Shown piece by piece: positions 13,631-18,668 of a DNA stretch of 64,000 bases; the stretch's first letter is position 1; every line of letters begins with the position of its first letter. The position numbers were made by a program, and so were the translations under genes. This stretch comes from Chryseobacterium sp. SN22. Lineage in GTDB: Bacteria; Bacteroidota; Bacteroidia; Flavobacteriales; Weeksellaceae. The stretch lies in the NCBI RefSeq assembly GCF_008329705.1, contig NZ_VTSX01000012.1, positions 1-64,000 on the forward strand, read 5' to 3'. Under the pieces are notes generated by a model, which was given only the letters and a program-made list of their open reading frames with translations, was not told the origin of the DNA and made no database searches.

Positions 13631-14689
13631 ATGAAAAGTCTTCTCGTATTGCTGTTTCCGGTATATCTGTTTTCTCAGGAAAACTGTTTCGATGATGGCC
13701 AGAAACATTATTCCGCTAAAGGGAAACTCTCCTATTACACCCAAATGACAGAATTTATCCTGCTGAATAATCCAAAACATATTAAGTACAGAGAAAACAG
13801 GGCAAACCTGAGTTATGAAGAAGATGAAAGGATGGATGAATATTCAGGCATGGCTTATGAACAGAGGATGTCGGAGGATTATAAAAAGTTTGAGATTTTC
13901 TACAAATATTTTAACCATCAATTCCATTATATCAGGCTTCAGAAAGCAGGAAATTCCTTATATGCGGTTGCTGAAAATCAATTCGGACACTGGCTGTTGG
14001 AAATAAAGGGACGGAAGCCAAAAGCCTATTATATCGGATTCAGTAAAAACACCTATATCAACAGAAGACAAAAGGACGGATTTATCAGGAACAATACCCT
14101 TTTCCTCGACGGCAGCTTTATCAGCATCAAAAAGGGAATACGGTTTGATGAATGGACAGCCGTAAAAGATTTCCTGACCTTTGAAATCAATCTTGATGAT
14201 ATAAAAAAGGATTCCGATGGTGACGGGTACAATGATCTCTTTGAAAACCTTATTTTCCTGAATCCTGATTCCCGCGATACCGATGGGGACGGAATTTCAG
14301 ACTTTGAGGATTTAAATCCGCTTCACACTTCGGAAAGAAACAGGTTCACCGAACTCTTTAAAAGCATTATCGAGTCAGACCTGGGCGAAAATGAAGATGC
14401 AACCCGGGATTATTATTCCTTTGAAATCTATGAGTCCGACTGTAATTTTTTTCAGCGGATTCATCCTAAGGATACAAGAATACTGGTGCTCTCCGGTTCG
14501 CAGGCTTATCAGCTGGAAAATAATTCCCGGTCTTCGCCGTTCGGTACTTTTTACGGAAGAATCAAAAAAGGTCCGGATGAAAAAACATTTTACATCCCTT
14601 ACTTCAAAAGTTCGAGCGGTGGCAGAATAATTGCTGAGTACAAGAACGAAAAATGGTCTGTTCTTGAAGACCAGGAATATAAAACATAA
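13631..14689 (+). CDS. Exported protein with EF-hand-like Asp loops
   Basis: 352 residues with a signal peptide (MKSLLVLLFPVYLFSQ). At about residues 193-230 are two thrombospondin-3/EF-hand-like calcium loops, DSDGDGYNDLFE and DTDGDGISDFED, spaced by LIFLNPDSR. The flanking domains, including the block FGHWLLEIKGRKPKAYYIGF, are not recognised. It is paralogous to the protein at 15442-16527: the same order of blocks (QFHYIRL/QFYYINT, FGHWLLEIK/FGYWFLEVK, the Asp loops, then SGSGG-like end). The glycosylase gene lies between them, starting 4 bp after this stop, so the three are likely co-transcribed. Function unknown; envelope or secreted calcium-binding is inferred. Confidence 0.7.
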   Translation: MKSLLVLLFPVYLFSQENCFDDGQKHYSAKGKLSYYTQMTEFILLNNPKHIKYRENRANLSYEEDERMDEYSGMAYEQRMSEDYKKFEIFYKYFNHQFHYIRLQKAGNSLYAVAENQFGHWLLEIKGRKPKAYYIGFSKNTYINRRQKDGFIRNNTLFLDGSFISIKKGIRFDEWTAVKDFLTFEINLDDIKKDSDGDGYNDLFENLIFLNPDSRDTDGDGISDFEDLNPLHTSERNRFTELFKSIIESDLGENEDATRDYYSFEIYESDCNFFQRIHPKDTRILVLSGSQAYQLENNSRSSPFGTFYGRIKKGPDEKTFYIPYFKSSSGGRIIAEYKNEKWSVLEDQEYKT

Positions 14690-15441: not shown

Positions 15442-16527
15442 ATGAAACTAAATTATTTATTGCCATTTATTTTTACACTTACCTCCTGTATCACCGACCG
15501 GAAAGAAGATGCCTGTTTTGAAAATGATAAAAAAGAAAAGACAGCGTACCATGAATTCAGAATTGATACCCCACAGGAAATTCTACGGGCCAACCCTTCT
15601 CATGTAAAATTTACTGTCGATAACCAGCAGCTAAAGACTTATAAAGAAGAAACGGAAGATGGCCGGAAATTGTATTCAGAAGCAGAAGATAAAAAACGCC
15701 TCAAAGCTTATAAAGATACGTATGTGGAACTCATCAAAAATTTCGGTGACCAGTTTTACTATATCAATACAGAAAAAACCCATGGAGTCGTTTATGGAAT
15801 CGGCGAAAATATTTTCGGCTACTGGTTTTTGGAAGTAAAAAATAATATTCCCGATGCCTATTATCTGGGACTAAGCCGATTCACCCATCTCAGCAAAGAA
15901 CAGCCGGAACATTTCATTTCGGGAAACAAGCTCACAGCGTACGGCAGCTTCATACGGATCCGTGAAAGCTGGGGTTATCCTTTCGGTCCGCAAGAAGAAG
16001 CTGTAAAAGACCGGCTGATGTTTGAAATTGATCTTAAAGCCGTAAGGAAGGATTCGGATAAGGACCGGTTCAACGACCTGTTCGAAAAGCTGGTTTTGTT
16101 AAATCCCAATTCGGCGGACACCGATCAGGATGATATACCGGATTTCACCGACCGTAACCCGCTGTACCGGTCGGAAAAATCGAAATTCACGGATCTTTAC
16201 ACAATGATCATCGATCGTGAATACGGGCAGAATGATTTTGCAAAAGCGAATTATTTTTTTGCCGGTTATTTTTCAGACTGTGAGTATTTCCATCACATGA
16301 ATCCCATCCAGATAAAAGTCCTTATTTATCCTGAGAACAAAAGTTCCGAGCTTCAATCCGATTACCGGCTGGGCATGTTTCCTGAACACATCGGAAAAAT
16401 CAGGAAAGATAAAGACAAAAACAGATTTTATATCGATTACGGAAGCGGGTCCGGCGGTGGTTTTATTGAAGCGCTTTTCAAAAACGGGCAATGGACCTTA
16501 TCGAAACAATCTACTTATAGTATATAA
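15442..16527 (+). CDS. Lipoprotein paralogue with degenerate Asp loops
   Basis: 361 residues; the start at 15442 gives a lipoprotein signal with the lipobox LTSC. It is a paralogue of the protein at 13631-14689 over most of its length. The calcium-type loops are degraded: DSDKDRFNDLFE and DTDQDDIPDFTD have lost the Gly positions of the DxDGDG consensus, so metal binding may be weakened. Neighbouring blocks (ENIFGYWFLEVKNNIPDAYY) are conserved. It starts 14 bp after the glycosylase stop. The pair probably arose by duplication around, or insertion of, the glycosylase gene. Function unknown. Confidence 0.7.
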   Translation: MKLNYLLPFIFTLTSCITDRKEDACFENDKKEKTAYHEFRIDTPQEILRANPSHVKFTVDNQQLKTYKEETEDGRKLYSEAEDKKRLKAYKDTYVELIKNFGDQFYYINTEKTHGVVYGIGENIFGYWFLEVKNNIPDAYYLGLSRFTHLSKEQPEHFISGNKLTAYGSFIRIRESWGYPFGPQEEAVKDRLMFEIDLKAVRKDSDKDRFNDLFEKLVLLNPNSADTDQDDIPDFTDRNPLYRSEKSKFTDLYTMIIDREYGQNDFAKANYFFAGYFSDCEYFHHMNPIQIKVLIYPENKSSELQSDYRLGMFPEHIGKIRKDKDKNRFYIDYGSGSGGGFIEALFKNGQWTLSKQSTYSI

Positions 16528-17160
16528 TCATTTCTTTCTATTTATAAGGTTTTTGTATAGTATAAGATATGTTCTTACAATTTTCGGCAACCTAATGCAC
16601 TGTCTGATCATGTACAGTTTTTAAACATTAAAAATCACCAATCTCCGATTAACAGGAGAATTTGATTAATGAAATGTCTTATCTTTTTTTAATCATTTTT
16701 ACTTATCCTTTCAATAAGGCTGCCACCCCTCTGAGACAGTTTTAATAAAAAACACAGTCTATAAACAACTGATTTATAGCTTAAAAATTATATTTTAAAA
16801 TAAAACATTTACCAGATTTATCCGGATTCCCTGTTGTTATCATTGGAACGACGATCGTAAAAAGGCATCTTCAAACAGCCCAATAATAAGTTTTTGTAAC
16901 ATTCAATATCCATACAAGTCAAAAATAAGTGATATAATATTGTCTCAAAAGATGTTATTATGTATTGCATTTTTTCTTTTTTGGATTATCAACTTTTAAA
17001 TGCAAGCGCAGAAATGATTAACAGATCAATAATTTTTTACACAAAACACAACAAAAGCCTTTATAAATTTTTAATTTTATATTAAATTAATGTAAACTAT
17101 TTTTATCCAAAACGTAAACAAAAACCACTTAAAACACTGATATACATCATGATTATTTGT
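16528..17160. other. AT-rich gene-free interval
   Basis: More than 600 bp, strikingly AT-rich, without a supportable gene. A 15-codon hydrophobic ORF (16952-16999) preceded by TAATATTG is present but too short to claim. Several A/T runs and TTTTTG/TAACATT words resemble promoter remnants. It separates the 13.6-16.5 kb gene trio from the accessory block that follows. Confidence 0.5.
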
Positions 17161-17191
17161 TTTGGAACCTCATCTGAAAGTCGTAATATTG
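17161..17191 (+). promoter_or_regulatory. Promoter of the small-peptide unit
   Basis: TTTG at 17161-17164 and TAATATTG at 17184-17191 are 19 bp apart, fitting the Bacteroidota -33/-7 pattern (TTTG, 17-23 bp, TAnnTTTG) with one mismatch in the -7 element. It lies 50 bp before the 27-codon ORF. Confidence 0.5.
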
Positions 17192-17240
17192 CAAATGTAA
17201 AATCGACAATAATAAATCAAATAATTAAAAATTCAACAAA

Positions 17241-17324
17241 ATGATCACTTACATCGGAATCGCAACATGTTTAGTAGTTTTTGCTTCTTATTTTGCAACT
17301 GTGAAGAGAGAACAGGGAAACTAA
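17241..17324 (+). CDS. 27-residue single-helix membrane peptide
   Basis: ATG at 17241 to TAA at 17322-17324. The product has a neutral start, a ~16-residue hydrophobic stretch (YIGIATCLVVFASYFA) and a charged tail (TVKREQGN). That is the layout of small single-pass subunits or regulators such as CydX or KdpF, although the sequence is not one I recognise. Supporting evidence is contextual: a well-placed promoter at 17161-17191, codon use in keeping with a gene, a foldable RNA at 17385-17450 and a terminator at 17507-17533, making a self-contained unit in an otherwise empty region. No larger partner gene is adjacent. Confidence 0.5.
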   Translation: MITYIGIATCLVVFASYFATVKREQGN

Positions 17325-17333
17325 TGAGATTTT

Positions 17334-17357
17334 CCGGAACTGATTATCAGTTTACGG
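17334..17357. other. Hairpin after the small peptide gene
   Basis: The stretch ccggaactga / tta / tcagtttacgg pairs as an imperfect stem of about 10 bp (core AACTGA/TCAGTT). It is not followed by a U-run, so it is not a classical terminator; it may stabilise the 3' end or belong to the folded RNA downstream. Confidence 0.3.
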
Positions 17358-17384
17358 AAAAACACAAATGAATGACATTGTATA

Positions 17385-17450
17385 TGTTTTCAATCCGTCA
17401 GAAAGATTGACTGCTCTTTTGCCCATGCGGGTAAAAGGGCACCGAAAACA
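17385..17450 (+). ncRNA. Candidate structured RNA, three-way junction
   Basis: Hand folding gives three helices. The closing stem is TGTTTTC (17385-17391) with GAAAACA (17444-17450). The first arm is a short AATC/GATT hairpin. The second arm is a 12-bp stem from GCTCTTTTGCCC to GGGTAAAAGGGC with loop ATGC, containing only two G-U pairs. It lies between the 27-codon ORF and a terminator. It does not match the core motifs of TPP, purine, hammerhead or cobalamin RNAs that I could check by eye. It may be a 3'-UTR element or an independent small RNA. Confidence 0.35.
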
Positions 17451-17506
17451 TAGCAAAGATTTTACACTAAGGAAGACAACTTTTAATTTTTATAATAGCC
17501 GATAGA

Positions 17507-17535
17507 GTCGAACAGATATTGTTCGGCTTTTTTGT
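17507..17535 (+). terminator. Intrinsic terminator of the small-peptide unit
   Basis: An 8-bp stem (GTCGAACA with TGTTCGGC, loop GATAT) is followed by TTTTTTTG. It ends the 17.2 kb unit just before the AAA+ gene. Confidence 0.75.
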
Positions 17536-17546
17536 TGGATAAGCTT

Positions 17547-17554
17547 TATCTTTG
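17547..17554 (+). promoter_or_regulatory. -7 element for the AAA+ ATPase gene
   Basis: TATCTTTG is an exact TAnnTTTG match 19 bp before the ATG at 17574, immediately after the preceding terminator. It would give a very short 5' leader. The -33 partner is not convincing. Confidence 0.4.
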
Positions 17555-17573
17555 CTGCCATAAATTGAAAGCA

Positions 17574-18290
17574 ATGAACCTGTACAACCTCATTATCCAG
17601 GACAAGGAAGAAATAACGCTTGACGATGTATTCCTGTCGCCCCACAACAAAGAACAGTTTGTACAGCTCATCAAAGAAAACACCTACGCGAAGGAACTGC
17701 AGGAATACGGTCTCCCGGTCAACAACAAGGTGCTTCTGGAAGGAAGTTCCGGCTGCGGAAAAACCATGACGGCTAAAGCCGTTGCCCATGCCTTAGGCAA
17801 AAACATCATCATCCTTAATCTGAGCAACATCGTGTCTTCGCGGATCGGCGAAACGTCCCAGAATATCAAAATGATCTTCGACAAGGCCGCACGGGAACGG
17901 TCGGTCCTTTTCCTGGATGAACTCGACCAGATCGGGAAAGCCCGGGGCAGCGACGATAAAGATGTGGGCGAAATGAGGAGGCTCGTGAATACCCTGCTCC
18001 AGCTCATCGACTATTATCCCGAAAACGCCCTGCTGCTCTGCGCCACCAACCATCCGGAAATTATCGATACCGCTTTGATCAGACGGTTCCAGCTGAAAGT
18101 TAAGTATGAAATGCCTTCAAAAGAATTCCTTGACACCTTCTACAATCAGATTCTGGAAGCATTCCCGGAAGATCTCTGCAACATCGAACGGGAATACGGC
18201 ATTTCCTTTGCCGAAGCGAAAGACCATGCTTTTACGGTAATGAAAGGGAAGTTGATTAAGAAGCTGGAAGAAAATGCTCTGAAAATATAA
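17574..18290 (+). CDS. AAA+ ATPase
   Basis: 238 residues, starting at the ATG at 17574 because the terminator and promoter lie upstream of it. Walker A is GSSGCGKT (57-64), Walker B VLFLDELD (111-118), and sensor 1/arginine-finger regions follow (LLCATNHPEIIDTALIRRFQ, about 150-170). It is a single compact AAA domain of the FtsH/SpoVK/ClpA-N type without a protease or substrate domain. Such stand-alone ATPases remodel proteins, often with a neighbouring partner. The following lipoprotein gene begins 10 bp after its stop, but a cytoplasmic ATPase and a lipoprotein need not interact. The role is unknown. Confidence 0.85.
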   Translation: MNLYNLIIQDKEEITLDDVFLSPHNKEQFVQLIKENTYAKELQEYGLPVNNKVLLEGSSGCGKTMTAKAVAHALGKNIIILNLSNIVSSRIGETSQNIKMIFDKAARERSVLFLDELDQIGKARGSDDKDVGEMRRLVNTLLQLIDYYPENALLLCATNHPEIIDTALIRRFQLKVKYEMPSKEFLDTFYNQILEAFPEDLCNIEREYGISFAEAKDHAFTVMKGKLIKKLEENALKI

Positions 18291-18299
18291 TTCAGCTTT

Positions 18300-18668
18300 A
18301 TGAAATCGAAGCTTTTAGTAATTCTTCTCACCATTTTATTTTCCTGCTCCCAAAAATATACGGGAGAAATTGTCTTTAAAAACTGCAAAGTGGATTATCC
18401 GTTGCATAATGAGGAAAAAGAAATAGAAACATACTATGGAGCCGTTACCAATCAATGGGAATACGAATCTGCTTTGCGAGAATTGGCCCTTTGTCTGTGC
18501 GACCGGTACGATAAGAAACCTGACGAAGAAATTAAAAATAAAATTATCGAAATCGCTCAATACAAATTTGAGTTTTACCCTAGAGATGCGTCATTTAAAA
18601 AAGTAAATTTCGATTCTATTTTAATGAAGAGAAAAGAAATCTTTGATCCTACGATTATTATTGATTAA
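18300..18668 (+). CDS. Small lipoprotein of unknown function
   Basis: 122 residues with a type II signal (MKSKLLVILLTILFSC, lipobox LFSC). The mature part has a central Cys-containing helix (ALRELALCLCDRYDKKPDEE) and a charged C-terminus. I do not recognise the family. It follows the AAA+ gene closely, and its last codons contain the -33 element of the promoter for the ankyrin gene. Confidence 0.6.
   Translation: MKSKLLVILLTILFSCSQKYTGEIVFKNCKVDYPLHNEEKEIETYYGAVTNQWEYESALRELALCLCDRYDKKPDEEIKNKIIEIAQYKFEFYPRDASFKKVNFDSILMKRKEIFDPTIIID

Follow-up and report, generated by a model that had tools for sequence, protein, structure and literature searches.

A small gene conserved throughout Chryseobacterium combines a predicted membrane peptide with a candidate three-way-junction RNA

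We analyzed a 64,000-nt stretch of a Chryseobacterium sp. SN22 contig (hereafter, the window; NZ_VTSX01000012.1, positions 1 to 64,000), in which a promoter, a 27-codon ORF, a three-way-junction RNA and a terminator had been proposed to follow one another within 375 bp, in about 1 kb otherwise devoid of genes. All four elements are present in the sequence, in that order and at the proposed places (Table 1), and the gap between the flanking ORFs indeed spans 16528–17573, if the downstream AAA gene begins at the ATG at 17574. The predicted fold of the unit is more stable than those of dinucleotide shuffles (z -5.05 for 17195–17535), and the same comparison for 17325–17460 gave a z of -6.71. Regarding the surrounding genes, the AAA ATPase (17574–18290) is recognized by the PADLOC models of IetA (best E 2e-58), and the ORF that follows it (18300–18668) has no Pfam match. 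On the other side, two related ORFs of one BLAST cluster (cluster 17; 13631–14689 and ~15442–16527), one of which has a sub-threshold TSP3-repeat match, flank a gene that we take, on our own reading of the sequence, to be Nei/Fpg-like.

Table 1. Positions of the elements of the unit and of its upstream DNA in the window.
Feature	Position	Strand	Description
AT-rich conserved noncoding block	16950..17062	.	Upstream of the promoter; limits approximate
Near-invariant upstream element	17137..17150	+	CTGATATACATCAT; 5′ of the promoter
Bacteroidota-type promoter	17161..17191	+	TTTG at 17161–17164, 19 nt, TAATATTG at 17184–17191; predicted from sequence
ORF	17241..17324	+	27 codons plus TAA, MITYIGIATCLVVFASYFATVKREQGN; a single transmembrane stretch is predicted, and the C-terminal tail is basic
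Three-way-junction RNA core	17378..17456	+	Placed by covariance model and alignment of relatives
Helix P1	17383–17391/17444–17452
Helix P2	within 17392–17411
Helix P3	17413–17424/17429–17440
AU-rich linker	17475..17505	+	From RNA to terminator; absent where the RNA abuts a gene
Intrinsic terminator	17504..17533	+	Hairpin 17504–17530 followed by a T-run

Mean pairwise identity across 126 loci is highest in the ORF (0.77), the upstream element (0.76), the leader (0.73), the promoter (0.71) and the RNA (0.69), and falls to 0.43 in the terminator and to 0.41 in the spacer just 5′ of the RNA. The 43 nt after the RNA are moderately conserved (0.48), and the far-upstream DNA, from -300 to -180, still reaches 0.58, vs. 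0.24 at 100–200 nt past the RNA. The spacing is regular as well, with quartiles of 49–55 nt from stop codon to RNA core and of 43–49 nt from core to terminator. The neighbourhood of the unit is fixed across relatives, and promoter, RNA and terminator are retained across most of the genus. The unit is a genuine small gene, conserved throughout Chryseobacterium.

In the 132 loci scored for a promoter (one further locus has no box by the pattern that we used), TAATATTG was found in 106 and TTTG 19 nt 5′ of TAATATTG in 108. In 101 of these 132 loci the motif ACATCAT sits 40 bp ahead of the -7 box, and a looser form of it occurs in all 133. In the aligned promoters of many relatives the -33 position reads TTTGGCACGTGATTTGAAA, which recalls a sigma-54 site; the window and some other loci differ there. 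The AT-rich block farther upstream, which we also aligned over 37 selected loci, possibly represents regulatory DNA. We considered whether it could be an ORF or an RNA and rejected both, as the 133 loci share no long open frame and the RNAalifold consensus is empty on both strands. The block and the CTGATAWACATCAT element are kept despite differing upstream genes. In the fold of the window the 5′ leader also forms a long-range pairing with sequence 3′ of the RNA, but the relatives that we compared by eye do not keep it. On the minus strand, three sites in the unit or next to it (17209–17486) were marked as sigma-70-like, none of them of the Bacteroidota type, in a simple sigma-70 scan, a method poorly suited to promoters of other types.

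The ORF is intact and starts with ATG in all 180 loci collected (duplicates included), among which there are 118 different ORFs encoding 80 different peptides; its length is 26 aa in 103 loci, 27 aa in 76 and 25 aa in 1. Over 6057 pairs of the distinct ORFs the median dN/dS is 0.21, with 99.6% of pairs below 1, and for close pairs the ratio of means is 0.32. Conservation of this kind, together with the universal ATG, argues that the ORF is coding and that the peptide is under purifying selection. The 19-residue hydropathy maximum of the peptide is 1.89. Four residues (T9, S16, Y17 and E24) are invariant among the 80 distinct peptides, and T20 and C10 are nearly so (78 and 72 of the 80, respectively); from their spacing, T9, S16, T20 and E24 would lie on one face of a helix. 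NCBIfam returned no family for three peptides scanned, Pfam gave for these three only PRD1_DD, weakly (16.3 bits vs. a cut-off of 46), and the PDB gave no significant match (best E 0.36). CydX and KdpF are small accessory subunits of membrane complexes, and the Chryseobacterium peptide resembles them in its size class (~25–40 residues), in its single transmembrane helix, predicted here, and in conserved polar residues that probably share one face. Unlike them, it has neither a Pfam or NCBIfam family above cut-off nor a significant PDB match, and it was not found outside one genus.

Within that genus the peptide is nearly universal: it was found in 167 of 168 Chryseobacterium genomes, one copy each, including all 164 of good quality, and the sole genome without a match is 73% complete. 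When the whole unit was searched by blastn against a first draw of 59 genomes, all 36 of the same genus matched, and two of the other 23 gave weak matches that did not extend beyond the AT-rich leader. Across the family, 149 of 296 genomes were hit by the peptide profile, all of them in a single one of the 33 genera. A broader profile run over the order matched 60 of 395 genomes at E <= 0.1. Of these, 42 belong to the genus (E <= 9.5e-15); the remaining 18 reach E 8.9e-4 at best, each over only part of the profile, and we take them as chance. The family- and order-wide searches thus gave no convincing copy outside the genus. A scan of named genomes, which seeds on conserved words and can miss divergent relatives, yielded 96 loci, and among the best 80 of them 79 were titled Chryseobacterium and one Weeksellaceae. 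The AAA gene itself occurs in 13 of 41 genomes of other genera, where inspection by eye of the ~770 nt upstream revealed neither peptide nor RNA. A search for the RNA outside the genus matched 1 of 60 genomes (E 0.0064), and we take this match as fortuitous, since the unmasked part of the sequence has no peptide ahead of it.

Inside the genus, a covariance model of the RNA (R1) matches 153 of 168 genomes in a search whose stricter filters lose weak matches. Six genomes gave a second match; second matches in a set of 100 loci lie on the opposite strand at the same place, except for a weak one elsewhere (L212, E 0.74). The three-way junction had been proposed from the window alone, and P1 and P3 fold as described there, whereas P2 is short and ambiguous in the window: the single-sequence fold pairs GUCAG with UUGAC (17397–17401/17407–17411), and the alignment of relatives pairs AAUC with GAUU (17392–17395/17405–17408). 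A further hairpin (17330–17361) lies in the poorly conserved spacer between stop codon and RNA. Of the 4227 Rfam families searched against the window, only a tRNA reached its gathering cut-off, and the four weak matches in 17100–17620 (best E 0.46) are far below theirs. The matches listed in our literature search include none on the peptide or the RNA, which is weak evidence of absence.

To describe the fold we used an alignment of 82 rows (A2), obtained from 85 distinct cores that were extracted by pattern, minus three that were dropped (L010, L047 and L075); five further loci fall outside the core pattern and hence outside the alignment, which therefore favours recognizable cores. The three-helix structure pairs 95.3% of cells in these rows, compared with 41.5–52.3% when the partners are slid. 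When substitutions were re-dealt on a tree, 82.9 ± 2.2% of cells were paired and the observed value was reached in 0 of 500 draws; with a second tree the same null gave 80.8 ± 2.9%. Double changes occur at 17 of 28 pairs, with 76 doubly changed cells vs. 15.9 in shuffles (0 of 500), and they are carried by P2 and P3. P1 hardly varies. Its double changes do not go beyond the null (152 and 121 of 500), and some of them look like misalignment. The wobble cells favour the sense strand, with 110 G-U cells against 24 A-C cells (57 against 24 without one wobble-rich pair), and single folds of 81 of the 82 cores contain exactly two hairpins. At the level of individual pairs, a covariation test in the style of R-scape found no significant pair (E <= 0.05) with either of the two trees, and RNAalifold predicted only P3 from the same alignment. 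Base pairing, taken as a whole, is conserved in relatives, and so is the peptide, the opposite of the non-conservation that the original prediction had named as counting against it. By these measures the peptide and the RNA fold, taken as a whole, are both under selection, and both parts look functional.

The two parts do not always travel together. Fourteen of the 15 genomes without an RNA match have the peptide. Some of the genomes without a match keep a changed fold, and one such locus (L019, from genome G030) was itself a row of the alignment. In the leaf order of a tree built from 89 AAA proteins, the RNA-less loci do not group at a single place, a hint that the RNA was lost more than once. 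In another locus (L068), a hairpin resembling P3, GCTCTTCCGCA/TGCGGAAGAGC, with several changes on both sides, lies ~40–80 nt past the peptide stop; P1 and P2 were not seen beside it.

Variation is also found at the 3′ end of the unit. Among 133 non-redundant loci, the RNA is followed by a terminator in 94 and runs into a gene in 18, while 14 have another arrangement (including L075, which lacks a real core) and 7 are without RNA. In 17 of the 18 loci without a terminator, the following gene has its ATG 5–7 nt past the 3′ strand of P1; in the eighteenth, read by eye, the distance is 7 nt. In one of these loci the fold buries this start codon. Of 41 distinct loci, 38 are followed by the AAA gene (39 of 42 labels, the window being counted twice), and in 19 of the 38 a gene of a single BLAST cluster intervenes before it. 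One member of this cluster is MepB-like (PF08877, E 2.6e-46), and 16 of the 18 loci in which the RNA is fused to a gene belong to it, the other two (L221 and L224) being outside that comparison. No mepB-like gene is present in the locus of the window itself. Promoter-like boxes were seen by eye before the AAA gene and before several mepB-like genes.

Based on these data, we favour a model, to which we give an even chance of being right, in which the unit is the mRNA of a small membrane protein, with a structured element in its 3′ UTR that acts on the transcript itself. The promoter would drive a short mRNA encoding a 26–27-residue single-pass peptide, and the 3′ UTR would fold into the three-way junction and normally end at the terminator. 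To judge by its composition, the peptide would sit in the inner membrane with its basic C terminus in the cytoplasm, and may bind a larger membrane protein via the invariant face (T9, S16, T20 and E24). The junction may be recognized in cis by a protein or a nuclease and thereby set the stability, the processing or the membrane localization of the mRNA. We infer action in cis from two features, which favour a cis-acting structure over a base-pairing seed: sequence conservation is found in helices P1 and P3 but not in the loops, and loci in which no terminator would give a discrete RNA nevertheless retain the core. Since the peptide persists in 14 of the 15 genomes without an RNA match, it would be the core of the gene and the RNA an accessory 3′ element, one that is probably dispensable given its absence from the matches in 15 of 168 genomes. 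Among the three readings offered originally, a peptide with a regulatory 3′ element is the one that best fits the data.

A second possibility, which we consider tentative, is that of a dual-function RNA, whose 5′ part is the peptide mRNA and whose 3′ part is, or releases, a small RNA that base-pairs in trans. In length, order of parts and terminator, the unit resembles VcdRP of Vibrio cholerae, a dual-function RNA of more than 300 nt that encodes the 29-residue protein VcdP (PMC8672173). The two are alike in being short independent transcripts, predicted as such here, that combine a peptide of about the same size with a 3′ part that is regulatory, or in Chryseobacterium presumably so; a U-rich conserved stretch before P1 and the AU-rich linker that follows the core in terminator-bearing loci would also suit a base-pairing RNA. 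Unlike VcdRP, which has an experimentally demonstrated base-pairing segment, the Chryseobacterium unit shows no seed in its core and no Hfq match in its genome, and its conserved RNA part is a helical junction. Neither the sequence nor the length of the P2 and P3 loops is constant, so that the core holds no conserved single-stranded seed, and 18 of the 133 loci keep the core without terminator and linker, compared with 94 in which a terminator would give the discrete transcript end. Hfq has no match in the window's own genome, although base pairing without Hfq is possible. In E. coli AzuCR, AzuC binds and activates GlpD while the RNA base-pairs with the cadA and galE mRNAs (PMC8672173); the unit is like AzuCR in placing a small protein and an RNA on one transcript, a likeness of layout for which we claim no homology. 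By analogy, then, the unit resembles small-protein transcripts with a regulatory part, such as these two, a resemblance that does not establish membership in their class.

We find it unlikely that the RNA is instead a cis-regulator of the downstream gene, in which the junction would sense a signal and act through the terminator in most loci and, in others, by occluding the start of a MepB-like gene. The short distance from P1 to the next ATG in terminator-less loci, the one buried start codon and the regular gap from core to terminator are consistent with such a role, and an AAA gene follows in nearly all distinct loci. Yet a simple terminator separates the RNA from what follows in 94 of 133 loci, no conserved antiterminator was seen, the AAA gene and several mepB-like genes appear to have promoters of their own, and the window's locus has no mepB-like gene to regulate. 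A related idea, which we hold to be improbable, is that of a portable 3′ UTR sensor with two outputs, the terminator in most species and, in others, occlusion of the start codon where a MepB-like gene is fused to it; if true, one membrane-peptide mRNA would control the next product in response to a ligand or a protein.

Somewhat harder still to reconcile with the data is the proposal that only the peptide matters and that the RNA is an incidental stable 3′ UTR, protecting the mRNA end unspecifically. The survival of the peptide in genomes without an RNA match and the lack of significant per-pair covariation would fit this proposal, but pairing over the whole structure exceeds the tree-aware null, the RNA is better conserved than the spacer preceding it, and helices conserved in sequence exceed what generic stability would ask for.

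The suggestion of a type I toxin-antitoxin unit, with the peptide as a membrane toxin silenced by an antisense RNA, did not withstand the comparison and is very hard to credit: size and a single hydrophobic stretch fit the class, but the gene is present in one copy in 167 of 168 genomes rather than patchy, mobile or multicopy, the peptide is under purifying selection amid conserved neighbours, PADLOC returned nothing for two peptides, the plasmid and phage searches gave no match for the window peptide (a 27-residue query having little power there), and no antisense promoter was obvious in the simple sigma-70 scan. A patchy, mobile or multicopy distribution is typical, if not strictly defining, of type I systems, whose toxins TisB and ShoB are short, hydrophobic, single-pass peptides encoded on a small transcript. 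The Chryseobacterium peptide, also short, hydrophobic and predicted to be single-pass on a small predicted transcript, differs from them as a universal single-copy gene under purifying selection, for which a simple promoter scan brought no recognizable antisense RNA.

Returning to the favoured model of a small-membrane-protein mRNA with a cis-acting 3′ element, the unit couples, on one short gene, a peptide family and an RNA fold that both lack an entry above cut-off in the libraries searched. This gene spans a large bacterial genus, and such small genes are easily missed by annotation pipelines. The loci in which the RNA is fused to mepB-like genes would provide natural experiments that separate the job of the RNA from that of the terminator. 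If both halves act, the unit would represent a new example of peptide and RNA functions being coupled, in bacteria whose representative here has no Hfq match in its own genome.
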